NCBI RefSeq assembly: GCF_020042345.1
Contig: NZ_CP083387.1
Span: 3,968,001-4,032,000, forward strand
From: Arachidicoccus terrestris
GTDB taxonomy: Bacteria; Bacteroidota; Bacteroidia; Chitinophagales; Chitinophagaceae
Length of the DNA: 64,000 nucleotides
Direction: 5' to 3'
Shown: positions 14,693 through 49,901 of the stretch, one piece after another
Numbering within the stretch: position 1 is the stretch's first letter
How the letters are laid out: the number at the start of each line of letters is the position of its first letter
Position numbers and translations under genes: made by a program
Notes under the pieces: generated by a model
Databases searched by the model: none
What the model was told of the DNA's origin: nothing
What the model saw: the letters and a program-made list of their open reading frames with translations, nothing else

Positions 14693-14969
14693 GGTTAGTT
14701 CATTTTAATGGAATAGGCGCAGTTCTGATAAGCAGCCCGGTTTCCAAATGAATATATTAGTTCAGAGTAAAAATGCTCAATAGGCGTATAAAGTTTTAAT
14801 AGGACAAAAATAAGGTATTTGTTAAATGATTTCCAAATTAAAGACCTCCTTTTTTTGAAATTATATATATATAAATTAACGTGAGTGATGTGTTTTGGGA
14901 TTTTTTGCTACATTTTTAAGAAAAAAAATATTTTTTTACATCTTTCTATTAGTAACTTTATCCTCAATT

Positions 14970-25380: not shown

Positions 25381-28300
25381 TTAACCGGTAAGGCCTATCT
25401 GAACGTGTATATCCGGATGGCTATTCAGGTAGTCAATCAGTTCATCATTCAGGCTGATTCCTTTATCCAGTGTATATAGGTTGACGGATGCCTGTTGCTC
25501 AAAGTCGATCACCTTGAATTTAAGGGTAGCGTTTCCGGGGTGTTTATTAATGTTCTCCTCTAGGAAATTGACCAGGTCATGAGTGACTTCTTTTAATGGC
25601 ATCTCCATATCCAGCGATTTTGTGAGCGCTGATTTAAGGGACTCCATCAGGCTTATAGAAGATATCTTAAATTCATATTGGCCTGTGTTGAATCTTTGCT
25701 TAAAATGTCCGGTTATACTGAGCATAAGCCCTGGCTCGACAAAATTTTTGAAGTTGAGATAGTCTTCCCGCCAGAGCATAAGCTCTGTTTTGCCGGAATA
25801 ATCCTCAAGAGCCAGTACGCCGAAGTCCATCCCCTTTTTTGTCTGCCGGTGTTGTGCGCCAACCACCATGCCAGCAATTCTGAAATTGACACCTGTTTTT
25901 GGATTGGCATCCATGCGCATGGCTTCAAAATCATTGAGTGGCATAATACCATAATGTTTCATTTCGAACCGGAAATTGTCTAATGGATGTCCACTGATAT
26001 AAATACCCGTTACATCTTTTTCATGCTCTAATTTTTCAATTAATGACCACTTGTCACAAGGTAATATTTTCGGCGTAGCGATTTCCGGCATGGTGGCTTC
26101 ACCAAATAAACTGCCCATGGAGCTTGTTTTACTGGTCTGAACCACGTTGCCAAATTTAATGATCCTTTCCAGGTTATTAACGACCTCCCCTGTCTGCACC
26201 GCAAAATATTGACCTCTGTGCAGGTCGGAGAAACAATCAAAGGCGCCTGCATATACCAGGCTTTCCAATGCTTTTTTATTGACAACTCTTTGATTAATGC
26301 GCTGGATAAAATCGAAGATATCTTTATAGGGGCCGTTTTGTGTTCTTTCCTCAATAACTCCGTCAATGGCGGCGTCTCCCATACCTTTCAAGCCGCCAAA
26401 TCCAAAGCGGATCTCTCCGTTTTTATTTACGGCAAAGCCTTTTTGGGATTCATTAATATCGCATCCCAGAACACCAATGCCCATCCTTTTACATTCCTCC
26501 ATAAAAAAGGTGATCTTGTCGATCGCACCCGCATGGTTGAGTACGGCGGCCATATATTCACTCGGATAGTGTGCTTTTAAATATGCTGTCTGATAAGCCA
26601 CGAAAGCGTAACAGGTAGAATGTGATTTGTTGAAGGCATATTGCGCGAAAGCTTCCCAGTCTTTCCAGATTTTGTCTAATTTGTCCTTGGGATGTCCTTT
26701 TTTGGAAGCCCCTTCAACAAACTGCGCTTTCATTTTGTCCAGAACAGAAATCTGCTTTTTACCCATGGCTTTACGCAGAACATCTGCATCCCCTTTAGAG
26801 AAGCCGGCCAGTTTCTGGGAGAGCAGCATTACCTGTTCCTGATAGACAGTAATGCCATACGTATCGGCCAGATATTCTTCCATCTCAGGGAGATCATAAG
26901 TGATTTCCTGTTCTCCATGTTTACGTTTGATGAAATCCGGTATATAGGCAATCGGACCCGGACGGTATAAGGCATTCATCGCGATCAGGTCGGCGAAAAC
27001 GTCCGGTTTAAGCTCCCGGAGATTCTTTTGCATGCCGGCACTTTCAAATTGGAAGATAGCATTGGTCTCCCCTTTCTGGAAAATCTCAAATGTCTTCTCG
27101 TCATCCAGCGGAATATAATCAATTTCAATATCTCTATCATAATTCTGCTTGATCAGGTTTAAAGCAGTCTTAATGATGGACAGGTTTTTAAGGCCCAGGA
27201 AGTCCATCTTAATAACCCCGGCGGATTCAATACTACTTCCTTCGATCTGTGTTACCCATAGGTCGGAATCTTTGGCTACGGATACAGGAATCAACTCTGT
27301 CAGATCTTTTGGTGCAATAATGATACCTGCCGCATGGATGCCTGTATTACGTACACTTCCTTCCAACCTTTCAGCTTCATGTAATACTTGTGCCCTTAAA
27401 TCATCACCGTTATATATCTCCCGGATCTTTTTGATATTCTCGATATCTTCCGGTGCATATCCTTCTTTTTCTGCGAGTGATTTTTGTCCATCCTTTGCTT
27501 CTGCTGCAGTGATCGGCGCCTTTAGAACACGACTGAGCTTGGTGCCGGGTTTATCAGGCACCAACTTTGCCAGCGTATTGGATTCAGCAAGCGGGAGATC
27601 CAACACTCTGGCGACGTCCTTGATAGACATTTTGGCTGCCATTGTACCATAAGTAATAATCTGAGCTACCTGTTGTTTAGAGTATTTCTCTACGACATAG
27701 TTGATTACTTTCTGTCTGCCCTCATCATCAAAATCAGTATCGATATCCGGCATGGATTTACGATCCGGATTTAAAAAACGCTCAAAAAGAAGATTATATT
27801 TGATCGGATCTATATTGGTAATGCCAATACAAAACGCGACCACACTGCCAGCAGCAGAGCCACGGCCGGGGCCGATAAATACGCCCAGGTCTCTGCCTGC
27901 TTTGATAAAATCACTTACGATTAAGAAGTAACCCGCAAATCCCATTGTTTTAATCGTAAATAATTCAAAATCGAGCCGCTCACGGATTTCCTCGGTAATC
28001 TCGCTGTAACGTTGTCTGGCTCCTTCATAGGTAAGATAATGCAGATAGTTCCACTGATTAATATTACTGTCCTGTGTTGTTTTAAACTCTTCCGGAATGG
28101 GGAACGCCGGAAGCAGAATATCTTTTTTAAGATTTAGCACTTCAATTTTATCCACAATGCCCTGGGTATTCTCCAGTGACTGAGGGATGTCCTTAAAGAC
28201 CTGCTCCATTTCTGCAGTTGTCTTAAAATAAAACTGGTCATTGGGAAATTTAAATCTTCTGTTTTTAATGATAGCGTCATCATTGACAAAGTCATCGAAC

Positions 28301-29052
28301 CCCGGCGTGGTTTGCTTTTCTCCTGTATTAATACAAAGCAGAATATCGTGGGCATTGGCGTCTTCCTGATTGGTATAGTGGCTGTCATTAGTACAGATGA
28401 CCGGTACGTTGTATTTTTTAGCCAGTTTCAGCAATACCAGGTTTACTTTATCCTGTTCAGGTATGTTGTGACGTTGCAGCTCTACATAGTAATCATCACC
28501 AAATAGGTCCAGCCACCATTTAAACTCCTTCTCGCCTTCTTCTTCTCCACCGGTCAAAATAGCCTGAGGCACGGAAGCGCCCAGGCAGCAAGTAGTGGCA
28601 ATTAATCCCTCATGATGTTTCGCGATCAGACTTTTATCGACCCTGGGATACTTGCCGTACAACCCCTCAATAAAGCCCATAGAAGTGATTTTGATCAGGT
28701 TGCGATAACCCAGATCATTTTTGGCCAGTAGAATCTGGTGATAACGGCGGTCCTTCTTTTCTTTCGTAAAAGTCTTCTGGAACCGGTCTTCCACAACATA
28801 GAGTTCACAACCTACAATCGGTTTGATTTTTGGGGTTACAATGTCTTTCCCGTTGGCATCCTTTCCAATGACTTTTGTATTGTTCCAGGCCTGGGCGACG
28901 AACTCAAAAGCACCGAACATGTTCCCATGATCGGTGAGCGCCAATGCTTTCATGCCGTCAGACTCCGCTTTTTTATAGAGATGTCCGATTGAGGCGGCTC
29001 CATCTAATAGAGAATATTGAGAATGAACATGTAAGTGCGAAAATTGAGGCAT
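25381..29052 (-). CDS. dnaE: DNA polymerase III alpha subunit
   Basis: Replicative polymerase, 1223 residues. The N-terminal PHP domain is intact (FSHLHVHSQYSLLDGAAS and LALTDHGNMFGAFEF keep the metal-binding His and Asp residues), so proofreading-like phosphoesterase activity is possible. The polymerase core has GPGRGSAAGSVVAFCIGIT and the catalytic MPDIDTDFDD near residue 440, then QIITYGTMAAK and RNTGIHAAGIII. The C-terminal half has a helix-hairpin-helix region, an OB-fold (NFRIAGMVVGAQHRQTKKGMDFGVLALED) and the tau/beta-binding tail. Length is usual for DnaE1 of Bacteroidota. It lies downstream of the giant glucan synthase gene, separated by 438 bases. Confidence 0.97.
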   Translation of the reverse strand: MPQFSHLHVHSQYSLLDGAASIGHLYKKAESDGMKALALTDHGNMFGAFEFVAQAWNNTKVIGKDANGKDIVTPKIKPIVGCELYVVEDRFQKTFTKEKKDRRYHQILLAKNDLGYRNLIKITSMGFIEGLYGKYPRVDKSLIAKHHEGLIATTCCLGASVPQAILTGGEEEGEKEFKWWLDLFGDDYYVELQRHNIPEQDKVNLVLLKLAKKYNVPVICTNDSHYTNQEDANAHDILLCINTGEKQTTPGFDDFVNDDAIIKNRRFKFPNDQFYFKTTAEMEQVFKDIPQSLENTQGIVDKIEVLNLKKDILLPAFPIPEEFKTTQDSNINQWNYLHYLTYEGARQRYSEITEEIRERLDFELFTIKTMGFAGYFLIVSDFIKAGRDLGVFIGPGRGSAAGSVVAFCIGITNIDPIKYNLLFERFLNPDRKSMPDIDTDFDDEGRQKVINYVVEKYSKQQVAQIITYGTMAAKMSIKDVARVLDLPLAESNTLAKLVPDKPGTKLSRVLKAPITAAEAKDGQKSLAEKEGYAPEDIENIKKIREIYNGDDLRAQVLHEAERLEGSVRNTGIHAAGIIIAPKDLTELIPVSVAKDSDLWVTQIEGSSIESAGVIKMDFLGLKNLSIIKTALNLIKQNYDRDIEIDYIPLDDEKTFEIFQKGETNAIFQFESAGMQKNLRELKPDVFADLIAMNALYRPGPIAYIPDFIKRKHGEQEITYDLPEMEEYLADTYGITVYQEQVMLLSQKLAGFSKGDADVLRKAMGKKQISVLDKMKAQFVEGASKKGHPKDKLDKIWKDWEAFAQYAFNKSHSTCYAFVAYQTAYLKAHYPSEYMAAVLNHAGAIDKITFFMEECKRMGIGVLGCDINESQKGFAVNKNGEIRFGFGGLKGMGDAAIDGVIEERTQNGPYKDIFDFIQRINQRVVNKKALESLVYAGAFDCFSDLHRGQYFAVQTGEVVNNLERIIKFGNVVQTSKTSSMGSLFGEATMPEIATPKILPCDKWSLIEKLEHEKDVTGIYISGHPLDNFRFEMKHYGIMPLNDFEAMRMDANPKTGVNFRIAGMVVGAQHRQTKKGMDFGVLALEDYSGKTELMLWREDYLNFKNFVEPGLMLSITGHFKQRFNTGQYEFKISSISLMESLKSALTKSLDMEMPLKEVTHDLVNFLEENINKHPGNATLKFKVIDFEQQASVNLYTLDKGISLNDELIDYLNSHPDIHVQIGLTG

Positions 29053-29490: not shown

Positions 29491-32400
29491 CTATTTCACT
29501 TGAACCTGATGTGACTGACCGTCGTCTACCATTGAGATATAGGGTTCCTCTTGTTGAACACCATCGACAATATAGGTGCTTGGTATATCGCTGCCGGGGA
29601 ATATTTCTATATGGTAGAGGGTTGCCTCTCCAAATCTATAATCTACTGTATAACGTTTCCAATTTTCCGGTGTACAGGGTTTAAAGGAAAGCTTGTTGCC
29701 ACTGCGTCGTATGCCCAGAATGAAACGGAACATAAATTGTTGCATCCAGCCGGCAGAGCCGGTGTACCAAGTCCACCCACCTCTCCCCTTATGCTGCGGA
29801 GAATTGTATACATCTGCAGCCATTACATAGGGCTCTACTTTATATGTTTCAAGAGCTTGCCTGGTGAGCGTATGAGAAACCGGGTTGATCATGGAAAACA
29901 GCTCCCAGACTTTATTTCTTTGTCCCATTTCTGCAAAGGCCATCATCGCCCAGACTGCTGCATGGGTGTATTGGCCACCATTTTCCCTTACGCCCGGCGC
30001 ATATCCTTTGATGTACCCCGGGTTTAAATCAGATTTATCAAATGCAGGATCCAGTAGCAGAATGATGCCTTCTTTGGGCCGGACAAGGTGCTCATTTAAA
30101 GATGTCAGCGCCCTTTGTTTTTTGTCGTCGTCCCCCGCTCCAGACAGTATAGACCAGCTTTGTGCGATGGAATCGATCCGGCATTCTGTATTTTGTCTAG
30201 AGCCGAGTGGTGTGCCATCGTCAAAATAAGCCCGACGATACCAATCTCCGTCCCAACCGTATTTATTGAGGTTGTCTTTTAATCTTTCTGCTTGCTCCAG
30301 ATATCTGACTGCTGTTTCATGATCCATTACTCTTGATGCGATTTCCTTAAATTGCATGAGTACGCTATATAGGAAAAAGCCCAGCCATATGCTTTCGCCT
30401 TTGCCTTTCTCTCCTACTTTATCCATGCCATCATTCCAGTCACCGGTACCCATCAGCGGTAATCCGTGCTCTCCCATTCTAAGTCCATGGTCGATGGCTT
30501 TTAAAGCGTGCTGATACAGGCTTTCTGTTTCTTCTGTCACAATAGGTAGATCATAGTAGGAGTCCTCGTTCTCATTAAGAGGTCTACCGTCTAAGTAGCT
30601 GGCCTGTACATCCAAAACTGCTTCGTCACCTGTTGTAAATATATATTGGGCCAGCACAAATGGCAGCCATAAATAATCATCCGAACAATGTGTCCTGACG
30701 CCCCTGCCAGTAGGCGGATGCCACCAGTGTTGAACATCTCCCTGTCTAAATTGTCTGGAGGCGGATAACAGGAGCTGATTTCTGGCAATATCGGGTCTGG
30801 TTGCCATTAGGGCCATGACATCTTGTAATTGGTCTCTGAAGCCAAATGCTCCTCCTGATTGATAATAACCACTTCTGCCCCATATTCTGCAGCTTAATGT
30901 CTGGTAGATCAGCCAGCCCCCAGCCAGAAAATTAAGCGCAGAGTCAGGCGTTTTTATGCTGGTCTGCCCCAGGATCTGATTCCACTGTTCATGCACCTGA
31001 CTGAGTGCCCGGGATGGGAATTCGACCTCATTGGACTTTCCGATCAGCTCAATTGCATTGGCTTTATCCTGTCCGCAACCCAACCTGAAATTCACTTCGG
31101 TTTGCTGATCTGTATATAATTGTAGTTGTATCTGGATTGCAGCACATGGATCGAGCGCGGCGCCGGTCTTGCCAGATAGTCGGGTACGTTTCATACCCGC
31201 TGGTGTACGCATTGAACCAGACCGGCCGATGAATGCCTCTCTGTCTGCTGTAAGGCTGTAGTCAATTCCTGATACTGCGTAAAAGCAGACGTTGCCCGGG
31301 TAGCTTCCGCTATAACGGTTGTATGCAAGGATTGCGGCCTCATCTGGCACCTTTTCCGTGACAATATATGGTGTCGTTTTGCCAGACTGGTCCCCTAATA
31401 TCCATTGTACATATCCCGTTATGGAGATCTTTCTTCCTCTGCCGCTGATATTATGGAGTTTCAACCATTGATAACGAACAGGCAGCGTCACATCTACAAA
31501 TATCCATAATTCACTGTGAATACCATTTTCGGTATGCTCAAAGACGCTGTATCCAAACCCGTGCCGGGTAATAAAATCCCCCTTGGTTATTGTGGGTAAT
31601 GGTGTAGGCGACCAGAAGGCGCCAGTCTCATCATCCCTTATATAAATAGCTTCTCCGCAATTGTCTTGAATCGGATCGTTTTTCCAGGGTGTGAGTCGGT
31701 ATTCATGCGCATTGCCGCACCATGTATAACTGCTGCCGCTTTCAGTAATGACCATACCCAGTTCTGGATTTGCGATGACGTTGGACCAGGGCATAGGTGT
31801 TCTTTGCCCGGCAGAGCTACGAATGATATATTCTTTTCCATCCTTTGTGAAACCACCGATACTATTATTAAAAACCAGTCCTTCCGGTAGAAGTTTTCTG
31901 GTGGAGATAACTGTTTTTTCCTCTCGGGTACTTTGAGTAGCAGATTTGGTCAGTTCAGGAGGCAGCAACTTTGTTTTCTGACTGCTATTGATCTGTTCTT
32001 CCAAACTTCCCAATTGGTCATCTATAATGATACGGGCCACGGTCTGCATCAGGATCCGGTCTTCCATCGGTATCTGATCTGCTGAGCGCAGGTAGATACC
32101 TCCGTATTGTGCATTGATTGAAACACTGTTTGCCAGTGCAATCAGGCTCTGGATCTGTTCATGGAGATCTTGTCTGTAAGAACTGAAATTCTCATTCCAT
32201 ATAATGAGATCTGCTTTTATTCCTTTTAGCCTCCAATAGGTATGTGCATTGATTAGTTGCCGGATCAGGCTAATATTTTCCTCGCTCTGTACACGAAGCA
32301 ATACAATGGGAAGATCCCCGGAGATCGCATAAGCCCATAATCCTGACTGGGTTTTAACGTTACTGGCAATAACAGAAGGGGCGGCTCTGAGCGCTGCGTT

Positions 32401-35400
32401 TGGATACAGGATAAAACCTGCCATTTTGCTGTAAAGTTTTGCTTCGGCCTCGGTGGCATTGATCTGACGAAGCAACACCTGGCTGTGTGTCCAAGATAGT
32501 TCAAAAGCCCTGTTTTTCAGGTGTCGGTCCTGATATTTATCTAGCAGCGCTTCACAAACTGCTTTTTCTGCAGCAACGCCAATGATCAGATCAATGGTCG
32601 CTGTCTGCCCCGCCTTAAGCTCGAACTGGTGGCGAATAGATACAATAGGATCCAATACAGCGCCTTCACTGTCGGATAAAGGGCCTGCCTTGTCCATTGC
32701 TATTGGATTAGCGGTGGTTCTGGCCCTGCCGATAAAACGTGCTCTGTCTGTTTCATAGGAAATATTGCGGCTGGTGATGCCGCTGACAGACATCAGGTGG
32801 AACATCCAGGGTGGCTGTTCATCAGATGATCTAGGTCTTCTGGTACATAGGATTGCCTGCTCCTCCTTAAGAATACTGGTTTCTACAAACAAGTTACTGA
32901 AGGCCGGATGCGCTTCATCAGCACTTTGCGGTGCTAACACCACTTCTGAATAGCTGGTCACTTCCAGTGTTTTTGAGCTGGATCCTCTGTTTGTTATCCT
33001 TATTCTTCTTACTTCCACATTGTCTTCCGGGGAAACAACGATTTCTGTCCTGGTTTCAATAGCATCATCCTTTCTTCTAAATTCTGCATGCCCCTGTGAA
33101 AAAACTGCTTCATAGACATCTGTCATTCCCAGCACCGGCTGATAGGTATTTGACCAGTACTGGCCTTCCTGAACATCTTTGATATAGCAGAAAGTGCCCC
33201 AGTTATCCATGGTGCCGTCTTCTCGCCACCGGCTGATCGCCAGGTCGTTCCACCGGCTGTACCCACCACCCGCATTAGAGATCATGACGTGATAATGACC
33301 ATTGGATAGCAGCTTGATCTCAGGATGTCGGGTAAAGGGTGTCCGGATAATTTCCATACTGGCTTGTTCGGTTACAGGACCGGTTTGTGCGTTATCCGGT
33401 GTATGTGCATAGAATATAGTGGCTTTAGGGATTTTCTCCTGTAGCAATAAAAGAGAAGATTGCAAGGTGGGGTCTGTTTCAAAGCGTTGTTGCATTTTCC
33501 CCTGGCGTAATAGGCAGGCCAGGGCTAAAAAACTCATGCCCTGATGATGCACCATAAAAGAGCGGATAACCGCCTCCTCTCCTCCGCGGGGTAATCTGGA
33601 CTTTGTAAAATCAATCGCTTCATAAAAACCATAGTGTCCGCTATACCCTTTTTCCGCCATTCGTCTCAGATTGCTGGTCGCCAGTCCCGGCCGGATCATA
33701 AGTGCCAGCATCGTCGCATAAGGGGCAATGACCAGGTCCTCTCCCAGCCCCCTTTTCAACCCCAGCCCTGGAACACCAAATGCACGATATTGATAGTTGA
33801 GATTTGCATCAACTGTATTATAGCCGGATTCCGATATGCCCCAGGGAACATTTCTGGAAGCAGCAAAAGATATTTGCTTCTTTATTAACCCTTTACTGGT
33901 CTGCTCTATTAAGGTGTTTTCGTAGGTAGGCATGACGAGTTGGGGCATCAGATATTCGAACATAGAGCCACTCCAGGATAGCAATACCGGTGTTTTTCCA
34001 GCGCCAGTTAGTAGCCTGCCAAGCGCGAACCAGCTTTCTTGCGGAATTTTCCCTTGTGCAATAGCCACATAGACCCCCAATCTTGCCTCTGAGGCCAGCA
34101 AGTCATAATAACTCTTATCTGCTTGTCTGTCCTGTACATTATAGCCGATACGCAATAGATGTTTAGAGCTGTCATATAAAAAACTATATTCCATATCAGC
34201 CATTCTTTCGCAAGTATCAGAAAGGTCGATAGACTGATCAATCAGATCTATTGCGGCCTTTGCTCCCCTGAGAACAAGTTCTTTTATCAGATCCGGGGAA
34301 ATTCGTTGACCCATAGCGGGGTTATTGTTGCCCGTAGCTATGTTTTCCGTTTGATCAAGAGCAGTTAATTTTTTGGGATAACCTTTGATGCGGTACAGAT
34401 GCGTGTTATTGACCAGCCACGGATACTGTTGCAGCAATATCTCTAGTTCGTTTTGTGATAAATTGTCCATAAAAGAGATCCAGGGTGCTACTGTGCTAAT
34501 CTGATCAATAAGCACCATCAATTGCCGGTGAAGGCAGATAATGCCACTTGCCGGAATAACCTGCATAGGGCTGGTCTTGGCCTCAGATTTTGTCTCCTGC
34601 AATATAGCCGCTGCCTGTGGGGCATTGGGCTCAAGAGCCGGTTGGGTCTTAGTGCGGCTGATCTCCTCCAGTTTTTCTTTTATTTCAGCTGGTTTTTCTT
34701 CATGGATCAGGGCTTCACAAAGTGTGGTCAGTTCCAGAAAACTACGATAATAGAAAAGCAGATCGTTTTGCAGCGCATCAACTGTTGCCATACAGGCGCT
34801 TAATCTGTTTTGAACGGAGATAAACCGATCATTATTTTGATTGCTATCCTGGTCCAACAATAAGGTGTCTCTTAGACCTTCAAATATATTGCTGGGAATC
34901 AGCGGGGCAAAGCTTAACTGTAATAGGCCCTGTCTGAGTGTGATGAGATGCCCTGCCAGATTGCCGCTGTCTACTGAAGAAACATATCTTGGAGGCAAGG
35001 GCTCCAGCGTCAGCGTATTATACCAATTGTAAAAATGCCCCTGGTATTTTTCCAGTCTGTCCATCGTTTGCAGCGTGTTGGCAGTCCTTGTGAGCAGTTC
35101 CACCATGGAAATATAAGCAAAGTCGTAGGCGGACAAGGTAGCCAGTAAAGACAGCCCCATATTGGTCGGTGAAGTACGATGGGCAATGACTGATGTAGGT
35201 TCCTGCTGATAGTTATCCGGCGGTAAATAGTTTTCTTCTTTGGTAACGAAGGTCTCAAAAAAAGACCATGTCTGACGACTCAGGTGGTGCAGAAAGGCCC
35301 GGTCCTGTTCAGATAAAACATCTGTATTTTGTCTTTTTGGCTGATTGGTGCGCCATACCAAAGCAGGTGCCAGCAACCATAGTAACAGAACGGGTAGTGC

Positions 35401-38382
35401 TACTAGAAATGAATCAATGGAATGTAGATATAAAAATACGCCTATGATTAGCGTAGTGACAGTGGCTGTCCACATAGCACTATAAGTACCCGTAAGTGAT
35501 GGCCTTTTTTTTCTCGCCAACAGCCCTGAGGGTACCCACTGGAGTAAGTGTTTTTTGGAAACGGTCATACGCCAGATGGTGCGTCCAATGGCATCCAGAT
35601 GTTGCCAGGCTTCATATGGCAGGCAGGCAATATAGAAAAGTTCTGTTAGAAAATTCTCCCAAGTCTTCCAGGCAAATTCCCTGAGATGTGGTTGCATATC
35701 CACATCCTTGGGCTTATGTAGTAAATGCCATAAAGAATTAAGCAGAATGGGGATAATAAAAACGGCAATGACACAACTCGTCCAGAGCCATGGGTAGGGT
35801 AACATCATCCAGCCCATACAAAGCAGGATGACTAAACAAGGTGCAACTAAAGAGCGCCGGATATTATCGGCTATTTTCCATTTGGATAGCAGCGAAAGTG
35901 GATTCTTTTGTAATCGTCCGTTGCCTGCCGGCGCCCATGGCATTGCCCAGGAGGCGATCTGCCAATCTCCCCGGATCCACCTGTGTTGCCGACCGGTGTC
36001 CAGTAAATAGCGGTCCGGATAATCCTCAAATAAAGCCACATCACTGATAAGCCCCGAACGCAAGTAGCAGCCCTCTAAAAGATCATGACTTAGAATTCTG
36101 TTCGTGGGTAGCCTGCCTGACAGGGCTCTTTCAAAAACATCAACTTGATAAATGCCTTTTCCGATAAAAGAACCTTCGCCATACAGGTCTTGATATACAT
36201 CAGAGCTGACCCGGGTATAGGGGTCTAATCCCGAGTCCATACTATGCATCCGGACAAACAAGGAACTCGTTGATTTTGGAAGCGTGACGGCTACCCTGGG
36301 TTGTAATATGCCATGGCCGGCGATGACCCTGCCCCGGGTCAGATCATAGAGCGGATGGTTGAGTGGGTGGGCCATCGTTGCAATCATCTGCGCAGCGGCC
36401 TCTCTTGGCAGCTTTGTATCTGCATCCAGTGTGATGACATATTTGATGGCCGGAAGTGTCTTGAAATCGCCTGCAATGGTCGCAAATGCACCGGTGTACT
36501 CTTCTTGCCCGTCCAGCTGTTTCTTTTCAGCTATTTCAATCCTTTTAAGTAAGAATTGATTGAGGTCGCCTAATTTTCCTCTTTTCCTTTCTCTGCCCAT
36601 CCATATTTTTTCTCCCGGGGACCACTGTCTGTTGCGTTGAAAAAGATAAAAGATATCGGCATTTCCTTGGCTGTATTTCTTATTAAGCGCTTCAATATTT
36701 TTCACGGCATGATGCAGTAAAGTGCTGTCTTCTTCTAAAACGGCCCTGTCGGCGTCTTTATAATCTGCCACCAGGCTATAAAAGAGATTTTTATGGGGAT
36801 TTGCCAGATACCGGACTTCGAGCGCTTCTATTAGTTCTTCTATTCCACTGAGGCTGGTCAGCATACAGGGCACGGCAACAAGGGTAGCGTTGTCGTCCGG
36901 TATGCCACCGCTAAAATCCAGTTTAGGGAGCAACCGTGGTTTAATGGCTCTTGTGACAATCCAGTTAGCCAGGGAAATGGCCAACTGGCTACCCCCTATG
37001 AAACTTAGAATAAAGACCAACAGGATGAGCGTATAATGCACATGATGGCTGTAGGCAAATATGCAGACAGCCATACATAAGACAAGGGTGCCGATGAGAA
37101 TTCCGACGCTATAATAAAAAAGCTTATGACTCAGAAAGAAAGCCTTTATTTTATCTGTAAAACTACAGTCCATTCTTGCCTCTTTTTGGGTCTGGGCGAT
37201 GCCTTTATCGATCAGGTAGTACCCCACATGCCTTCTTCGGTAATCTTCCAGATTATCTTTGCTGGCCGTAGCGAGCCGGATGGCGATGCCGGCAATATCT
37301 GCCTCAGAAATGGGACTCTTTTGAGCGATAGATTCGATTACATGTCTGTAAGTATCCCTGGTTGTAAAATCCATTTGAGTATATACAGGATCCTCTTTTA
37401 ATATCTGATCGACCGAACTTATACTTTCAACAAAGTCACGCCATTCAGTCGTTCTCAGTAATCTAAGGCTTTCAATACTGTTACGCATGGAGACCTGATC
37501 TGCTGCCTGGGATTGATTCTCTATGTGAATTAGTTCCGAGCTCGTATATCCGGTTTCCACCAGTTGCTGGTCTACCCAACTGAGCGGCAGGGTCAGTCCG
37601 GCCCCTTTTCCCTGCAAACGTCGGGTAAACTCCGCTACGAAACAGCTGGACAGAACGGGGCCGGTTCTGGCCATATCTGCCACGGTCAGGATGATATTTT
37701 TTGGCTGATTCTCGGCATCCTCTAAAAGGCGGCCCGCCCAATAGCCGGCGATATTCTGATCAATACGATCTAAGGCAATACTCACTGATACCCTTCTTAA
37801 GTTTTCAATGAGTGCCAGTCTAAGCATAATCGGAATGGCCCAGAGTTCTCCCAGGGTTAGGTTGGTTTGCTTTTGATAGGCGTTAATAAAACTGCTCAAG
37901 TTGATCAGATCCACACGCCCGTCACTGTGAGATATGATTTCCAGGGCAATATCGTACACTCTGGGAAAACCTGCATTAGCTCCGGAAGTCAGGTGTGGCA
38001 GATTCTGACTATATCCCTTGGGGAGGTGTTTACGCCCAATGGAGATCTGTTCCTCAATCAGATAAAAGTTATCTAAAAGCCATTCACTGGCAGGCGTTAA
38101 AGGCAGTTTGTCTTTTACTGCTTCTACCAACAGATCCCGTACCTGTAATAACACATCCTCGTTCTGATCCAATCTTTTTAAGAGCTTATCACTGTTCTTA
38201 CCAGACATGACCCGGTGGCTGGCCGCGACTTTAGTACCATGTCGCCTCATTTGCCAGGCACTGAAAAGCTCAGAACGTAGTGGTTGTTCTTCTTTGTAGG
38301 GTTTCTTTAAAATGCTCTCTCCCTGAAAATAGGAACGCATACGTAAGAGCAGGCTACTGGCCGTGTTAGTGATTTTCTTCAT
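29491..38382 (-). CDS. Cyclic beta-1,2-glucan synthase (NdvB/ChvB/Cgs type), giant membrane protein
   Basis: 2963 residues, close to the 2800-2870 of known cyclic glucan synthases. These enzymes polymerise UDP-glucose into beta-1,2-glucan, close it into rings and trim its length. Domains seen: transmembrane pair at about 420-475; GT84 glycosyltransferase with the UDP-binding TLDADTKLP (Asp 653, Asp 655) and GRQHRW (Gln 799, Arg 801, Trp 802); further membrane helices at about 845-885 and 960-1010; a glycoamylase-like (cyclisation-type) domain at about 1460-1600 (SGSMFEYLMP, PWGISESGYN, LGLKRGLGEDLVIAPYAT); two GH94 N-terminal beta domains near 1700 and 2190; and a GH94 phosphorylase domain with GDWNDGMDKVG (2647-2657) and GRGGWTWYTGSAGW. 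No frameshift. The substrate assignment is by homology; other linkages remain possible. GGAG precedes the ATG. Confidence 0.9.
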   Translation of the reverse strand: MKKITNTASSLLLRMRSYFQGESILKKPYKEEQPLRSELFSAWQMRRHGTKVAASHRVMSGKNSDKLLKRLDQNEDVLLQVRDLLVEAVKDKLPLTPASEWLLDNFYLIEEQISIGRKHLPKGYSQNLPHLTSGANAGFPRVYDIALEIISHSDGRVDLINLSSFINAYQKQTNLTLGELWAIPIMLRLALIENLRRVSVSIALDRIDQNIAGYWAGRLLEDAENQPKNIILTVADMARTGPVLSSCFVAEFTRRLQGKGAGLTLPLSWVDQQLVETGYTSSELIHIENQSQAADQVSMRNSIESLRLLRTTEWRDFVESISSVDQILKEDPVYTQMDFTTRDTYRHVIESIAQKSPISEADIAGIAIRLATASKDNLEDYRRRHVGYYLIDKGIAQTQKEARMDCSFTDKIKAFFLSHKLFYYSVGILIGTLVLCMAVCIFAYSHHVHYTLILLVFILSFIGGSQLAISLANWIVTRAIKPRLLPKLDFSGGIPDDNATLVAVPCMLTSLSGIEELIEALEVRYLANPHKNLFYSLVADYKDADRAVLEEDSTLLHHAVKNIEALNKKYSQGNADIFYLFQRNRQWSPGEKIWMGRERKRGKLGDLNQFLLKRIEIAEKKQLDGQEEYTGAFATIAGDFKTLPAIKYVITLDADTKLPREAAAQMIATMAHPLNHPLYDLTRGRVIAGHGILQPRVAVTLPKSTSSLFVRMHSMDSGLDPYTRVSSDVYQDLYGEGSFIGKGIYQVDVFERALSGRLPTNRILSHDLLEGCYLRSGLISDVALFEDYPDRYLLDTGRQHRWIRGDWQIASWAMPWAPAGNGRLQKNPLSLLSKWKIADNIRRSLVAPCLVILLCMGWMMLPYPWLWTSCVIAVFIIPILLNSLWHLLHKPKDVDMQPHLREFAWKTWENFLTELFYIACLPYEAWQHLDAIGRTIWRMTVSKKHLLQWVPSGLLARKKRPSLTGTYSAMWTATVTTLIIGVFLYLHSIDSFLVALPVLLLWLLAPALVWRTNQPKRQNTDVLSEQDRAFLHHLSRQTWSFFETFVTKEENYLPPDNYQQEPTSVIAHRTSPTNMGLSLLATLSAYDFAYISMVELLTRTANTLQTMDRLEKYQGHFYNWYNTLTLEPLPPRYVSSVDSGNLAGHLITLRQGLLQLSFAPLIPSNIFEGLRDTLLLDQDSNQNNDRFISVQNRLSACMATVDALQNDLLFYYRSFLELTTLCEALIHEEKPAEIKEKLEEISRTKTQPALEPNAPQAAAILQETKSEAKTSPMQVIPASGIICLHRQLMVLIDQISTVAPWISFMDNLSQNELEILLQQYPWLVNNTHLYRIKGYPKKLTALDQTENIATGNNNPAMGQRISPDLIKELVLRGAKAAIDLIDQSIDLSDTCERMADMEYSFLYDSSKHLLRIGYNVQDRQADKSYYDLLASEARLGVYVAIAQGKIPQESWFALGRLLTGAGKTPVLLSWSGSMFEYLMPQLVMPTYENTLIEQTSKGLIKKQISFAASRNVPWGISESGYNTVDANLNYQYRAFGVPGLGLKRGLGEDLVIAPYATMLALMIRPGLATSNLRRMAEKGYSGHYGFYEAIDFTKSRLPRGGEEAVIRSFMVHHQGMSFLALACLLRQGKMQQRFETDPTLQSSLLLLQEKIPKATIFYAHTPDNAQTGPVTEQASMEIIRTPFTRHPEIKLLSNGHYHVMISNAGGGYSRWNDLAISRWREDGTMDNWGTFCYIKDVQEGQYWSNTYQPVLGMTDVYEAVFSQGHAEFRRKDDAIETRTEIVVSPEDNVEVRRIRITNRGSSSKTLEVTSYSEVVLAPQSADEAHPAFSNLFVETSILKEEQAILCTRRPRSSDEQPPWMFHLMSVSGITSRNISYETDRARFIGRARTTANPIAMDKAGPLSDSEGAVLDPIVSIRHQFELKAGQTATIDLIIGVAAEKAVCEALLDKYQDRHLKNRAFELSWTHSQVLLRQINATEAEAKLYSKMAGFILYPNAALRAAPSVIASNVKTQSGLWAYAISGDLPIVLLRVQSEENISLIRQLINAHTYWRLKGIKADLIIWNENFSSYRQDLHEQIQSLIALANSVSINAQYGGIYLRSADQIPMEDRILMQTVARIIIDDQLGSLEEQINSSQKTKLLPPELTKSATQSTREEKTVISTRKLLPEGLVFNNSIGGFTKDGKEYIIRSSAGQRTPMPWSNVIANPELGMVITESGSSYTWCGNAHEYRLTPWKNDPIQDNCGEAIYIRDDETGAFWSPTPLPTITKGDFITRHGFGYSVFEHTENGIHSELWIFVDVTLPVRYQWLKLHNISGRGRKISITGYVQWILGDQSGKTTPYIVTEKVPDEAAILAYNRYSGSYPGNVCFYAVSGIDYSLTADREAFIGRSGSMRTPAGMKRTRLSGKTGAALDPCAAIQIQLQLYTDQQTEVNFRLGCGQDKANAIELIGKSNEVEFPSRALSQVHEQWNQILGQTSIKTPDSALNFLAGGWLIYQTLSCRIWGRSGYYQSGGAFGFRDQLQDVMALMATRPDIARNQLLLSASRQFRQGDVQHWWHPPTGRGVRTHCSDDYLWLPFVLAQYIFTTGDEAVLDVQASYLDGRPLNENEDSYYDLPIVTEETESLYQHALKAIDHGLRMGEHGLPLMGTGDWNDGMDKVGEKGKGESIWLGFFLYSVLMQFKEIASRVMDHETAVRYLEQAERLKDNLNKYGWDGDWYRRAYFDDGTPLGSRQNTECRIDSIAQSWSILSGAGDDDKKQRALTSLNEHLVRPKEGIILLLDPAFDKSDLNPGYIKGYAPGVRENGGQYTHAAVWAMMAFAEMGQRNKVWELFSMINPVSHTLTRQALETYKVEPYVMAADVYNSPQHKGRGGWTWYTGSAGWMQQFMFRFILGIRRSGNKLSFKPCTPENWKRYTVDYRFGEATLYHIEIFPGSDIPSTYIVDGVQQEEPYISMVDDGQSHQVQVK

Positions 38383-38762: not shown

Positions 38763-40034
38763 TTAATGAGGTGCCTTTAGCAAGACTTCTTGCTCCTTGC
38801 TTCCGGCTATCGATTTAGCTTTGAATATAAAGGGAAAGACCAGTGCCAGCACAAGAGCATAGGCTGCAAAAGTCATCCAGATGCCTGTCCACTGTTTGGT
38901 TCCATCCGCCAAAGTAAAGAAATGATCGATCAACAGACCACTGCCAAAACTCCCCAGTAATGCGCCGAAGCCGTTGACCATCATCATAAACAGACCCTGT
39001 GCGGAGCCCCGGATACCAGGATCGGTCTGAGTCTCGATGAATAAGGACCCGGATATATTAAAGAAATCAAAAGCCATCCCGTAAATAACGCAGGAAAGAA
39101 TAATCATCCATAAACCATCGTCCGGGTTTCCGGTGCCTAATAGCCCAAATCTTAAAACCCAGGCGACCATACTGATGAGCATGACGTATTTGATGCCGAA
39201 CCGCTTTAGAAAAAAAGGTATAGCCAGGATAAACAAGGTCTCTGAGATTTGGGAAACGGACATGATAATAGCTGGGTATTTCACCGCCAACGTATCCTTG
39301 TAGGCAGGTATTTTTGCAAAGTCATGGATATATGTATCACCATAGGCATTGGTAAGCTGTAGCGCCGCTCCCAACAGCATGGCAAAGAAAAAAAATACGG
39401 CCAGATTTTTGTCTTTAAATAGCCTGAAGGCGTGTAGACCGAGTGCTTCCGAGAAGCTCTTTCCTTTGGTATGTTTGCCCAGGGGCGGGCAGTCCGGCAA
39501 AGTGAATGCGTAAATACCCAATAAAAAGGATGTCGCACTGGCGATATAGAACTGGTTTTCGGAAGCCTCATTATGGGTCAGGCTTACCACCCATAAAGCA
39601 GCAATAAATCCGATCGTCCCCCAGATTCTGATCGGTGGGTAATCTTTTACCACATCCATGCTTTCTTTTTTCAATGCGTTATAGGCTACTGTAATGGATA
39701 GCGAAATGGTTGGCATATAAAAAATCATGTTGATCAATAATACCCAGAAGAAGAGACCTGGCGTATTGATCTGTGGAATCATCAGCAATGTACAGGCTCC
39801 CAGAAGGTGCATGACCCCATACATCTTCTGGGCAGGGACGAAGCGGTCCACAATGATCCCGGTAAGGGCAGGCATAAAAACAGAGGCGATACCCATGGTG
39901 GAAAATATGGCGCCAAAATCGGTACTGGACCAGTGTTTATGTTGGAACCAATAAACACCGATGGTAATCAGCCAGGCGCCCCAGATAAAATACTGGAGGA
40001 AATTCATCAATATCAACCGCAGTTTTATGCCCAT
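38763..40034 (-). CDS. MFS nucleoside permease (NupG/XapB-like)
   Basis: 423 residues from the ATG at 40034, with about 12 hydrophobic helices. The start MGIKLRLILMNFLQYFIWGAWLITIG is typical of the nucleoside:H+ symporter group, as are the central MRGSAQGLF-like stretch (GIRGSAQGLFMMMVNGFGALLGS) and the long cytoplasmic loop near residues 190-205. The frame is open further upstream to 40079, but the extra 15 residues do not fit the family. It probably imports nucleosides; sugar specificity is not shown. It is followed by a long gene-free stretch; the flippase gene lies 119 bases upstream. Confidence 0.85.
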   Translation of the reverse strand: MGIKLRLILMNFLQYFIWGAWLITIGVYWFQHKHWSSTDFGAIFSTMGIASVFMPALTGIIVDRFVPAQKMYGVMHLLGACTLLMIPQINTPGLFFWVLLINMIFYMPTISLSITVAYNALKKESMDVVKDYPPIRIWGTIGFIAALWVVSLTHNEASENQFYIASATSFLLGIYAFTLPDCPPLGKHTKGKSFSEALGLHAFRLFKDKNLAVFFFFAMLLGAALQLTNAYGDTYIHDFAKIPAYKDTLAVKYPAIIMSVSQISETLFILAIPFFLKRFGIKYVMLISMVAWVLRFGLLGTGNPDDGLWMIILSCVIYGMAFDFFNISGSLFIETQTDPGIRGSAQGLFMMMVNGFGALLGSFGSGLLIDHFFTLADGTKQWTGIWMTFAAYALVLALVFPFIFKAKSIAGSKEQEVLLKAPH

Positions 40035-40153
40035 AATCGATCGTATTATTATAGTTCCGGAGCTTTTCCCCGCCCCCAACCTGGATCTCTTTATATTTTA
40101 CAAAGGAAATACAACACAAAGCCACAGCAATTTAACCAAATAGTTGTTAGGTA

Positions 40154-41644
40154 TTAAGATTTACGCAGGATTTTCTGCACAATGTTTTTATACATGGCAG
40201 TAATGTCCTCTGAAATATTAAAATATAGCACAGCCGGAACATATAACAGGGCAAAAGTGGCACATCTTAATACCGCATCGGCATATAAGTTGCCTATAAA
40301 CGGAATTAGACAGGTGACAAAGATCGCCGTTCCTGCAATGAGAAGTGTATATAATGTCTTTCGGTCGAAAGGTTGCAATTTGAACAGCCACCATAGAAGG
40401 GAAAAACGGGTCATATTGTAGAAGATCAGCGCTATGGCACTGCCATAGGCAGCTCCCATCAGACCATAGGTTCTGATCATAAAATAGTCCAGGATGATAT
40501 TGATCACGATAAAGAAGACACTGGAGTAAAAATCCATTTTCCAGTACTTGGACAACAGCAGTATCTGTGCATTCATACCCATACCCAGATCAATGAGCTT
40601 TGCCAGCCCCGCCACGATAAAAATAGCTTTAGCCATACTATAATCAGGATTGAATCTGACCAGATTGTCTAAATTGGGCATAAGGAGCCCAAAAATGGCC
40701 AGTCCCAACACCAGCAAATTGAGGGACGTCTTATGATAGAGCTCCCTGATCTTTTTTATGTCCTTATTCTTCCAGGCCTCGGCAATCAACGTTGTGGTAA
40801 TGCCCTGCATACTTCTAAAGGGCACATCCATGATACTGGCCAGATAAACGGGAATACTGTAAACGGCAAGATTTTCCAGGCCTTTGTCTGTGAGACCGGC
40901 GATCAGTATCCCGTCAACAGTTTTCGGCAAAACGCCGATCAGTAATCCGGAATAATGGTAGGTGACAAATACCAGGATTTTTTTATAGAGCCTTTTAGTC
41001 GCCCGGCTGATCCTGGCGTAAATAGTTAATCCGCCGTTTTTATAAATAACATAAATAAGGACCAGAAGCGCCGGTACATATGAATAGGCAAAAAGGACAA
41101 AGAATGTCTCCAGTGTGACCCAGTGCAACACATAGAGTAAAATAAGAATCGTAGTCGTGAGCCGGTAAAAAAGCTCTTTTACAATATTTGAGATAATGGT
41201 CCTTTTAATGACCCAACAGTATGCCTCTAGCATCATGAGCATGGTGTAGGAGATCGTAAAGGGAATTACCAGTCGGTAATGAACAACAAAAAGTGGCGAA
41301 TTACTGCCAAACTTCCTTTCCAGAAATGGCTCAAATACAATGGCAGCTATTAAGAAGAGCACAGATCCCAGTATATTCACCATCAGCGTCAGATACGGAA
41401 GGTCATTTTTGCCTTTAGGCAAAAAGTCTCTGTAGAATGGATTGAATTTATACAGGGCGCTCAGACTCCCGAGGGTCGACAGTGCAGAAAAAAACAGCGA
41501 GAACTCGATCATGATCCGGGTCAGGCCAAATTCTTCCTTGCTGAAAAAAATGGGAAAAAGTACGATCGTATTAATAGCGCCAATGGCAAACCCCAAATAG
41601 GTAAAGATGGTGGAATAGGTACTTTGTCTACGTACGATGCCCAT
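40154..41644 (-). CDS. Polysaccharide flippase (Wzx/MATE-like, MOP superfamily)
   Basis: 496 residues, with some 12-14 hydrophobic helices and no large soluble domain. The N-terminus (STIFTYLGFAIGAINTIVLFPIFFSKEEFGLTRIMIEF) and the paired helices around 320-480 fit polysaccharide biosynthesis membrane proteins that move lipid-linked oligosaccharides across the inner membrane. No glycosyltransferase cluster surrounds it, so its cargo is unknown. The glucan synthase gene lies close by but makes its own product and is not known to need a flippase. The start ATG at 41644 is the first in the frame and suits the family. Confidence 0.85.
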   Translation of the reverse strand: MGIVRRQSTYSTIFTYLGFAIGAINTIVLFPIFFSKEEFGLTRIMIEFSLFFSALSTLGSLSALYKFNPFYRDFLPKGKNDLPYLTLMVNILGSVLFLIAAIVFEPFLERKFGSNSPLFVVHYRLVIPFTISYTMLMMLEAYCWVIKRTIISNIVKELFYRLTTTILILLYVLHWVTLETFFVLFAYSYVPALLVLIYVIYKNGGLTIYARISRATKRLYKKILVFVTYHYSGLLIGVLPKTVDGILIAGLTDKGLENLAVYSIPVYLASIMDVPFRSMQGITTTLIAEAWKNKDIKKIRELYHKTSLNLLVLGLAIFGLLMPNLDNLVRFNPDYSMAKAIFIVAGLAKLIDLGMGMNAQILLLSKYWKMDFYSSVFFIVINIILDYFMIRTYGLMGAAYGSAIALIFYNMTRFSLLWWLFKLQPFDRKTLYTLLIAGTAIFVTCLIPFIGNLYADAVLRCATFALLYVPAVLYFNISEDITAMYKNIVQKILRKS

Positions 41645-47236: not shown

Positions 47237-48583
47237 ATGAAGCACCTTCTCAAAACACTGGTTCTTGCCGGTTGTTGCTTGATCTTAACTCAAAACACTT
47301 TTGCACAGGTAACGGATACCAGTACCACACATGAATTTACCTTGCAGGAAGCGTTGGATTATGGCCTTCGCCATAATGTACAGGTAAAAAACGCCTTACT
47401 GGATATTCTTATACAGGAGCAGACTAACCGGGGGGTTGCGGCGGCGGCTCTGCCTTCCGTTAATGCCAGCGGCTCGCTGACCGACAACCTGAAATTGCAA
47501 ACCACACTCCTTCCGGGTGAATTTTTAGGGCAACCAGCCGGAACCTTTGTGCCGGTTACTTTTGGCACTAAGTATATCACTAGTGCGGGGGTAGACTTGA
47601 ATCAGGTTCTTTTTGACGGGCAGGTATTTATAGGGTTAAAGGCCAGGAAGACTTCTATGGACTGGAAAAACGCTCAGGCGGAAGTCACCAAGGAACTCAT
47701 CCGGACCAATATTTACAAAGTCTATTATCAACTGGTTGTCAGTCGCACGCAGATGGAACTCATCAATGCCAACATTGATATGATTGCCAAGTTAAAACAT
47801 GACACTAAATTGATGTATGAAAATGGCGTTGCAGAAAGGCTGGATGTGGATAAAAGTGATGTACAGCTGACCAATCTGGAGACGGAAAAGCAAAAACTGC
47901 TGGTGACGATCGCCAATGGATACAATGGTCTTAAGGTCCTGTTAGGCATGCCGGTTACCGATAAGCTGATACTCAGTGACACGCTCAGTGAGGACCAGAT
48001 TAAGTCTGGTATTCTGATCAGTGATGACTTTGATTATGCACAGCGTAATGATTATAAATCCCTGCAGTTAACCAAGAAATTAGATGAGTTTAATGTGAAG
48101 CGGTATAAATATAGTAAAATGCCGACCTTGAATTTAGGCGCCTCTTACAGCAAGCAGTCCCAGGAAAATGAATTCAAATTTACCGGTGACTGGTATACCT
48201 CTGCTTTTGTCGGCCTTACATTGAAAGTGCCTATTTTTGCCGGTTTCGGAAAAAACGCTCAGATTAAACAGGCGGAATTTGAAGTACAGAAAGTAGACAA
48301 TCAACTTTATGATCTCCGTCAGAGCATCGATAATGAGATCACTACTGCAAAGAATAATTTTACGTCTGCCATCTCTATTATGGATTATCAGAAAAAAAAC
48401 ATGGCTCTCGCTCAAAAAGTTTATGACCAGACCAAAAAGAAGTATGAAGTTGGCGCTGGCTCTCAGACAGAAATCAATACCGCACAGACAGACCTGAAAG
48501 CGGCACAGACAAACTATATCAGTGCGCTCTATGATGCGGTTGTGGCGAAGATCGATTTTTTGAAAGCTACTGGCAAATTATAA
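47237..48583 (+). CDS. TolC-family outer-membrane efflux protein
   Basis: 448 residues with a signal peptide (HLLKTLVLAGCCLILTQNTFAQ). The two repeated TolC domains are visible as long helices with Leu/Gln/Asn-rich repeats, starting FTLQEALDYGLRHNVQVKNALLDILIQEQ and, in the second half, LKKFMTR-like coiled coils (QKVYDQTKKKYEVGAGSQTEINTAQTDLKAAQ). It forms the outer-membrane channel of the tripartite pump encoded with the next two genes. Only 25 bases separate its stop from the adaptor gene, so the three form an operon. No lipobox is seen. Confidence 0.93.
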   Translation: MKHLLKTLVLAGCCLILTQNTFAQVTDTSTTHEFTLQEALDYGLRHNVQVKNALLDILIQEQTNRGVAAAALPSVNASGSLTDNLKLQTTLLPGEFLGQPAGTFVPVTFGTKYITSAGVDLNQVLFDGQVFIGLKARKTSMDWKNAQAEVTKELIRTNIYKVYYQLVVSRTQMELINANIDMIAKLKHDTKLMYENGVAERLDVDKSDVQLTNLETEKQKLLVTIANGYNGLKVLLGMPVTDKLILSDTLSEDQIKSGILISDDFDYAQRNDYKSLQLTKKLDEFNVKRYKYSKMPTLNLGASYSKQSQENEFKFTGDWYTSAFVGLTLKVPIFAGFGKNAQIKQAEFEVQKVDNQLYDLRQSIDNEITTAKNNFTSAISIMDYQKKNMALAQKVYDQTKKKYEVGAGSQTEINTAQTDLKAAQTNYISALYDAVVAKIDFLKATGKL

Positions 48584-48608
48584 AAAACATTATCTAAATA
48601 AACGACAG

Positions 48609-49862
48609 ATGAAAAATAAGTGGATACAACAACTTGGATTGGGTGCTAGCCCTCGCTCTCTTTCTTTCGCGCTCTACTTTTCTGCCATGTTCTTAATGGC
48701 CGGCATTATACTTACCGGCTGCGGTGGTGACAGCAAGGGGAAGGAAGCTAAAGTCCTGCAGGAGAAGAAAGCAGAACTCACAAAATTGCAAGGACAGCAA
48801 GATGCGCTGACAGCTCAGATTGATAAACTGCAAAAAGAAATTAAGGCGATCGATCCGAATGCTGTTGAGGCAAAACGTAAACTGGTCGCCCTTGACACAA
48901 TTGCTATCAGTACCTTTGATCATTATATTGATCTTCAGGGTAAAATTGATGCCCAAAATGTTGCTTATGTAGCCCCTAAAGGCCAGGGAGGTGTGGTTAA
49001 AGCGATCTATGTGAAACAAGGTGATCATGTTTCAAAAGGACAGTTGCTGTTAAAACTGGATGATGCATCACAACGGCAATCTGTGATAGCCGCTCAGCAA
49101 CAGGTGGCTGGTATCGCTGCTCAGATGGAGCAGGCAAAGACAGTCTTCGAAAGGCAGCAAAATCTCTGGAAAGAAAATATTGGTACAGAGTTGCAGGTGC
49201 TGAATGCCAAGACTTCTTTGGAAAGCTTGCAGAGTCAATACAAGGCTGCTAAAGCCAACGAAGAAATTGCTGAAGAACAAGTCAATAATACAGCCGTTCG
49301 CGCAGGAATCAGTGGGGTGGTTAATACATTGACAGTAAAAGTCGGCGAATTTTTTACAGCTGGCAATCAGGTCCAGATCGTCAATAATGATGACCTGAAA
49401 GTGACGGTCAATGTACCGGAAAATTATTCGGGCAAAATAAAAATGGGAAGTGTCATGCATGTAACATTGCCGGATGTCGGCGGGAAAGATCTGTTGACTA
49501 AAGTAAATGTTGTTGGCAGATTAATCGATCCGGTTAGCCGTACTTTCTATATTGAAGGTAAAGTACCTGAAGATCCTGTATTACGACCCAATCAGGTGGC
49601 TATGGCCAGGATTAAAGACTATTCAGATCCGAAAGCCATTACCATCCCTACCAATACCATTCAAAACGATGAAAAAGGTAAATTTATAATGGTCGCGACG
49701 GGTCAGGGAAATAAATTGGCTGCCAAAAAGAGGTATGTCACTGTTGGACAAATGTATCATGATCAGCTGGAAGTCAAATCAGGCCTGAAACCTGGAGATG
49801 TGATTATCAGCGAAGGTTTCCAGAACCTGTATGACGGACAACCCATCATGGTTGGACTATAA
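48609..49862 (+). CDS. RND efflux periplasmic adaptor (membrane fusion protein), lipoprotein
   Basis: 417 residues. A lipobox LTGC places the lipidated Cys at 38, after a long N-region. Next comes a coiled coil from about residue 40 to 80 (KVLQEKKAELTKLQGQQDALTAQIDKLQKEI), unusual for being before the lipoyl domain; then the lipoyl half-motifs (YVAPKGQGGVVKAIYVKQGDHVSKGQLLLKLDD and VRAGISGVVNTLTVKVGEFF) around a hairpin coiled coil, a beta-barrel domain, and the membrane-proximal domain at the end. It links the RND pump to the TolC channel and lies between their genes, 39 bases before the permease. Confidence 0.93.
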   Translation: MKNKWIQQLGLGASPRSLSFALYFSAMFLMAGIILTGCGGDSKGKEAKVLQEKKAELTKLQGQQDALTAQIDKLQKEIKAIDPNAVEAKRKLVALDTIAISTFDHYIDLQGKIDAQNVAYVAPKGQGGVVKAIYVKQGDHVSKGQLLLKLDDASQRQSVIAAQQQVAGIAAQMEQAKTVFERQQNLWKENIGTELQVLNAKTSLESLQSQYKAAKANEEIAEEQVNNTAVRAGISGVVNTLTVKVGEFFTAGNQVQIVNNDDLKVTVNVPENYSGKIKMGSVMHVTLPDVGGKDLLTKVNVVGRLIDPVSRTFYIEGKVPEDPVLRPNQVAMARIKDYSDPKAITIPTNTIQNDEKGKFIMVATGQGNKLAAKKRYVTVGQMYHDQLEVKSGLKPGDVIISEGFQNLYDGQPIMVGL

Positions 49863-49901
49863 GGGGAACGGTCAATTCTTATCTATTATTAATTCTACAT
49901 T

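Follow-up and report, generated by a model that had tools for sequence, protein, structure and literature searches.

Cyclic beta-1,2-glucan synthases (CGS) have been characterised in rhizobia, Agrobacterium and Brucella; in these bacteria, the rings are carried to the periplasm by a dedicated exporter. The best solved relative of the Arachidicoccus terrestris enzyme considered here is Cgs (ChvB) of A. tumefaciens (8rf0, 8rf9). We also compared the cyclisation domain of T. italicus (8wy1), the founder of GH189, which is treated alone in the available text of PMC10834661, and NdvB of S. meliloti (CP090106.1), a member of the same enzyme family. The plasmid ndvB of Enterobacter sp. 638 and Pantoea is likewise a CGS, with 47% identity to the A. 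terrestris protein; it differs in belonging to the Enterobacterales branch of the tree described below, where it is placed via two other plasmids (L106 and L107). Searches of titles and abstracts, with subscription journals mostly outside their coverage, found no study that characterised a Bacteroidota CGS biochemically, and no paper on the missing exporter of CGS carriers was recognised among them. NdvA is not mentioned by name in the available portions of PMC2869309 and PMC3505739.

Reading frame, domains and active sites

The window, by which we mean the whole stretch of 64,000 nucleotides that was analysed, contains a frame of 2963 codons with an ATG start and 0 internal stops at 29491-38382 on the reverse strand, exactly the single frame described in the first-pass annotation. 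Pfam assigns it GH94_b-supersand in two stretches (4.8e-165), Glyco_hydro_94 (3.5e-119) and, within the region aligned with GH189 cyclases, PF10091 Glycoamylase (2.1e-15). Using phmmer against solved structures, we found A. tumefaciens Cgs as the best match (2022 bits, residues 69-1160 and 1387-2914) and the T. italicus cyclisation domain at 441 bits. As sequence matches, these scores are far above chance level.

The predicted domains follow the order known from A. tumefaciens Cgs (all coordinates on the reverse strand). An N-terminal helical domain (residues 1-415, boundary approximate, 37138..38382) aligns with Cgs from residue 69 and is helical in the structural model. It is followed by two membrane segments (TM1-2, residues 425-469, 36976..37110), predicted by hydropathy and represented by model helices 420-445 and 450-479, by the GT84 glucosyltransferase domain (residues ~485-835, 35878..36930), and by four further segments placed by hydropathy and model (TM3-6, residues 844-1009, 35356..35853). 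The GH189 cyclisation (transglycosylase) domain, recognised by alignment and residue mapping, spans residues 1023-1653 (33424..35316). The GH94 supersandwich domain has its best stretch at residues 1687-1935 (32578..33324), Pfam counting a second one, and the GH94 phosphorylase catalytic domain, located by Pfam and mapping, lies at residues 2467-2890 (29713..30984). Unlike A. tumefaciens Cgs, the A. terrestris enzyme has about 100 more residues between query positions 1160 and 1387, and identity between the two is 33% over the N-terminal third. With the S. meliloti enzyme, identity is 39% over the C-terminal half.

Functional residues were taken from PMC10901819, PMC10834661 and PMC11842490 and mapped through aligned rows. 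All 10 mapped A. tumefaciens residues are kept: D527, R586, D624, D626 and Y694 correspond to D540, R599, D653, D655 and Y722, and D739, R773, R776, D2393 and D2528 to D767, R801, R804, D2517 and D2651. The eight N-terminal positions are invariant in 35/35 aligned sequences; they include the GT84 set (D540, D653, D655, D767, R801) and Y722 (36217..36219), the equivalent of the primer tyrosine Y694. D653 and D655 had been proposed as the UDP-glucose site from the sequence and do map onto D624/D626. The motif reported there as QxxRW reads RQHRW (R798-W802), as they do in A. tumefaciens Cgs. The GH94 catalytic aspartate is found as D2651, together with D2517; the mapping of these two relies on the 8rf9 and 8rf0 chains being offset from each other by 19 residues, since the letters misfit otherwise. 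The A. tumefaciens cyclase residue D1104 was left out of the mapping.

In the cyclase domain, 13/13 mapped T. italicus residues are kept, among them the nucleophile E1442 (here E1518), the acid/base E1356 (E1432), E1400 (E1476) and H1536/H1537 (H1612/H1613); G1104 and W1109 of the A. terrestris enzyme are also among the conserved cyclase positions. The T. italicus chain offset was picked to fit the named letters, and one offset alone fitted. These residues bear on whether the enzyme could make a linear or differently linked glucan. Identities of only ~33-39% to the characterised enzymes would allow for it, and we know of no Bacteroidota CGS product. However, retention of E1518, E1432, E1476, H1612 and H1613 along with the GT84 and GH94 residues makes such a product very improbable.

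An AlphaFold2 model of residues 1-1020, built from the alignment of 35 sequences, has a mean pLDDT of 85.5 and predicts the A. tumefaciens fold for the N-terminal third. Compared with 8rf0, it aligns over 932 residues with Z 32.7, rmsd 5.2 and 33% identity, and Foldseek matches it to 8rf9 with E 2.3e-54. Three Cgs entries are its top solved matches, followed by cellulose synthases at Z 22.4 and below. Ten overlapping hydropathy windows, merged by eye, give six hydrophobic segments (425-443, 451-469, 844-862, 870-888, 968-986 and 991-1009), as many as the Agrobacterium enzyme has, and an additional export channel within the protein itself was not found by hydropathy. According to the available text of PMC10901819, the membrane part of Agrobacterium Cgs consists of six helices and has no export channel; nothing here therefore suggests that the A. 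terrestris enzyme exports its own product.

Together, the frame, the Pfam and structure matches, the active-site mapping and the N-terminal model support a complete CGS in a Bacteroidota genome, in agreement with the first-pass annotation. By homology to the mechanism given in the available text of PMC10901819 and PMC10834661, a glucan chain would be primed on Y722, elongated from UDP-glucose by the GT84 domain, trimmed by the GH94 domain and closed to a ring by the GH189 domain, with all of these steps on the cytoplasmic side. That the enzyme makes a cyclic glucan ring is, in our judgement, very likely.

Distribution, tree and gene neighbourhood

The available data support the view that the gene is an ordinary member of a known and widespread family. 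CGS had been introduced as best known in alphaproteobacteria; its occurrence in Bacteroidota holds, but a rarity elsewhere does not, as relatives are found in Bacteroidota, beta- and gammaproteobacteria, Verrucomicrobiota and others, and on enterobacterial plasmids. Among 395 Bacteroidota genomes, 74 had some match and 24 had both CGS halves (one split over two contigs); most of the others among the 74 were GH94 phosphorylases or fragments. Scanning GTDB genomes yielded 361 stretches that encode a relative, from which 79 loci were kept, spanning Bacteroidota, Burkholderiales, gammaproteobacteria, Verrucomicrobiota and others. A plasmid collection contained 119 records in which a match covers 80% of the query or more.

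Some of these occurrences deserve mention in their own right. The plasmid genes come from Klebsiella, Enterobacter, E. coli, Salmonella, Pantoea and Serratia, and 26 of the 40 plasmid matches listed are labelled only 'glucoamylase family protein'. A long CGS of bacterial type was also met in a MAG labelled Methanogenium (L030); its presence in this archaeal bin is probably due to misbinning.

Presence is patchy closer to A. terrestris. At a threshold of E 1e-150, a match was found in 37/195 genomes of its own family, and three of four genomes sampled from the genus had one, a pattern more in keeping with an accessory than with a core function. The closest named relative is the enzyme of A. rhizosphaerae (76% identity); outside the genus, the best identities are ~50-59%, depending on the segment.

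A phylogeny, suggested earlier for the GT84 domain, was run on the GH189/GH94 half and not on GT84 alone. The tree was built with FastTree from the C-terminal half (query 1387-2914), with local SH-like supports and a midpoint root. From 139 fragments, 133 of them long enough, 98 rows were used. Rows were excluded because they were too short or split (L062, L064, L067, L045, L058, L136), because the genome was already represented by another row (L091-L095, L101, L135), or because they were a fragment or came from a doubtful bin (L006, L018, L030), and 25 further rows were hand-picked for removal to thin the Burkholderiales. The A. terrestris enzyme groups with that of A. rhizosphaerae (support 100); next to join are Niabella and a further family member (99). 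The Bacteroidota rows are accounted for by 5 changes on the tree, 4 of them forced by well-supported branches: besides a main Chitinophagaceae-Cytophagales group, Dysgonomonas stands beside Verrucomicrobiota, a Bacteroidales MAG falls among other phyla, and there are one or two deep groups. This scatter fits some transfer between phyla. The fast tree method, the long branches of L077, L117 and L118, and possible misbinning of MAGs weaken that reading.

Downstream of the CGS gene, after a gap of 438 bases, follows a frame that we take to be dnaE from its sequence (25381..29052, reverse strand), with no sign of a functional link. Upstream, 380 bases away, is a gene of the nucleoside:H+ symporter family (38763..40079, reverse strand), which adjoins CGS elsewhere in A. 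rhizosphaerae only among the 79 loci compared. In that species CGS is flanked by the same genes on both sides. CGS thus sits beside dnaE in these two members of the genus; it is ~0.77 Mb from dnaE in G745 and was not found in G904, and the dnaE regions of the two other genus members examined lack the upstream neighbours of the A. terrestris gene. Clustering of the flanking proteins of the 79 loci and the window for conserved partner genes gave a largest cluster of 17 loci, the window not included; examples in the large clusters, among those listed, are mostly Burkholderiales.

Since the immediate neighbours in the window recur only in A. rhizosphaerae, the neighbourhood provides no exporter candidate. 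S. meliloti is different in this respect, as ndvB there has both the glucan ABC exporter and a gene of the OpgC family within 5 kb; neither is found among the neighbours of the A. terrestris gene.

Two other features of the window were recorded. A 496-aa protein at 40154-41644 (reverse strand) has no Pfam or NCBIfam match and is conserved at 79% beside recQ in A. rhizosphaerae. An RND efflux set at 47237-53486 (forward strand) consists of an outer-membrane factor, an HlyD-type adaptor and an AcrB-type pump.

Decay is one conceivable explanation for the distribution. A silent or decaying copy acquired by transfer would account for the patchy presence, the different locus within the genus and the scattered Bacteroidota rows. 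It is hard to reconcile with an open frame of 2963 residues with conserved active sites, and with a 76% identical gene at the same place in A. rhizosphaerae, so that we regard it as extremely improbable.

The NdvA/ChvA exporter

Exporters were searched with the NdvA/ChvA model TIGR01192, which has a curated cut-off of 585.4 bits and gives 1181 bits for the S. meliloti control. In the complete, single-contig genome of A. terrestris, no protein exceeds the cut-off, the best of 43 matches scoring 260.6 bits with 63/63 candidates scored. Seven of its NdvA-like ABC proteins have frames of about 590-626 aa. This distinguishes it from A. tumefaciens, and agrees with the earlier observation that the window lacks such an exporter: the sole match there, a frame at 14895-17903, is UvrA-like by Pfam.

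The missing NdvA is not peculiar to A. terrestris. Scoring the best 17 candidates per genome, we tested 62 CGS carriers outside Rhizobiales (the 24 Bacteroidota genomes with both CGS halves, and those holding 38 of the 79 GTDB-scan loci) and found 60 below the cut-off. None of the 40 CGS-carrying Bacteroidota genomes passes at this depth (highest score 352 bits), and the one Bacillota row, Clostridium aestuarii (L077, G428), reaches 324 bits at best. The question of the export route, raised earlier from the window, holds and extends beyond this one genome. The two that pass are Rudaea (617 bits) and Dyella (611 bits). Their ABC exporters (G420:C79:94051-95784, a Rudaea MAG, and G426:C30:6390-8105, Dyella) are barely over the cut-off and belong to the second of two score groups, at 529-617 bits.

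These groups are evident among 299 Pseudomonadota genomes, for which the best 4 candidates per genome were scored and 32 NdvA matches were obtained at E 1e-130. Thirteen genomes score 942-1086 bits and 19 score 529-608 bits, 11 of the latter passing the curated cut-off. All 13 high-group genomes carry CGS, with NdvA and CGS less than 3 kb apart in 10 and on different contigs in the other three. At the same depth, 25 of 38 CGS-matching genomes have no high-group NdvA, and four of these 25 have a second-group protein. A CGS match is present in 4/19 second-group genomes (G527, G571, G586 and G623, the last with the GH94 part only) versus 21/267 of the other genomes that lack a high-group protein; the excess is weak (p 0.07, or 0.21 if G623 is not counted). 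The other 15 second-group genomes have no CGS match. In our judgement, the second score group is a different ABC family. If it exports the ring too, NdvA-like export would be somewhat wider, and still absent from the Bacteroidota tested.

On the CGS tree, high-scoring NdvA goes with one rhizobial clade. At a threshold of 900 bits, its distribution (12 rows with, 67 without, 19 rows lacking an NdvA score) requires one change. The tree omits low-identity CGS genomes both without high NdvA (G515, G519, G607, G678) and with it (G475, G511), and given these six genomes, one change may be too few. The curated cut-off gives 4 changes, and a threshold of 500 bits gives 5.

This pattern raises the main alternative, namely that the ring is retained in the cytoplasm, where it would serve as an internal osmolyte or glucose store, NdvA being a rhizobial addition that made the glucan periplasmic. 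The single clade and single change of high-scoring NdvA, the 0/40 Bacteroidota carriers, the low score of Clostridium aestuarii and the Agrobacterium Cgs without export channel (in the available text of PMC10901819) would all be in keeping with it. The four changes at the curated cut-off, in place of one, are not.

The family of Lysobacter, which we take to include Xanthomonas, is informative in this regard. Among its 149 genomes, 36 match CGS, 34 of them with both halves, and none has NdvA over the cut-off when the best 8 candidates per genome are scored. One CGS carrier (G954) has an NdvA-like protein at 557 bits, slightly under the cut-off at this depth, and some CGS carriers may thus have a diverged NdvA. 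The available text of PMC3505739 cites a cyclic beta-1,2-glucan that X. campestris has outside the cell; with 0/149 in its family, a different export route is conceivable in principle, and this argues against a ring confined to the cytoplasm.

A broader form of the idea is that CGS began, and in most lineages remains, without a dedicated exporter, the ring elsewhere staying inside or leaving by an undescribed route, and that NdvA was added once, in rhizobia, making the glucan periplasmic. The A. terrestris genome would then combine a ring synthase that has no exporter of its own with a surface system for recovering beta-1,2-glucan. We put this forward tentatively and consider it doubtful.

A beta-1,2-glucan breakdown locus and the fate of the ring

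A search of the genome for GH144, proposed along with the initial description, was positive. Outside the window, at contig C1 ~4427648-4439730 (L163:3648-15730), lies a predicted beta-1,2-glucan utilisation locus that encodes a Reg_prop regulator (whose LuxR-type match is below threshold), SusC, SusD, GH144 and GH3. SusC, SusD, GH144 and GH3 side by side are presumably the mark of such a locus, and the set is present here. The GH3 enzyme scores 1124 bits against 3u48 and 1029 bits against 5xxl, which we take to be a B. thetaiotaomicron enzyme. The GH144 enzyme (contig ~4435346-4436926) is, besides CGS, the only protein in the genome with PF10091 and scores 655 bits against the C. pinensis endo-beta-1,2-glucanase 5gzk, which is CpSGL in the available text of PMC10834661. 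A GH3 beta-glucosidase of B. thetaiotaomicron prefers beta-1,2-glucans, as stated in the available text of PMC11842490. Close relatives of CpSGL (5gzk, 5gzh) and of the GH3 beta-glucosidases (3u48, 5xxl) thus occur together in one SusCD locus. Unlike CGS, these systems serve breakdown and not synthesis, and the locus is 0.43 Mb away from the CGS gene.

Judged by its sequence, A. terrestris is probably able to make beta-1,2-glucan and also to feed on it. Read by eye, the N-terminus of GH3 resembles a signal peptide, and GH144 carries a lipobox-like TLSC. Enzymes with such export signals could not reach a cytoplasmic ring, a further point against its retention in the cell, which we hold to be unlikely. 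On the other hand, the GH144 locus may serve to eat foreign glucan and need not act on the organism's own product.

Ring synthesis combined with export by a route other than NdvA is in our view the probable course of events. The ring would leave the cytoplasm by a route not of the NdvA/ChvA type, most likely through a general or unrecognised exporter, because the enzyme shares the six-helix part of the Agrobacterium protein, which has no export channel. With no exporter candidate and no recurring neighbour beyond A. rhizosphaerae, this step is a guess. Outside the inner membrane, beta-1,2-glucan of its own or of neighbours would be taken apart by the SusCD-GH144-GH3 system. Activity, linkage, ring size, export, a periplasmic or extracellular role and any link between the two loci are what we infer here.

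CGS is common enough in Bacteroidota to be no surprise; the wider exporter gap is the point of note. The textbook exporter was found in none of the Bacteroidota carriers tested (best 17 candidates per genome) and in a minority of the Pseudomonadota carriers sampled (best 4 candidates per genome). Whether and how the ring crosses the membrane in carriers of this kind becomes a direct question, for which Arachidicoccus, Niabella and Dyadobacter would be convenient test organisms.
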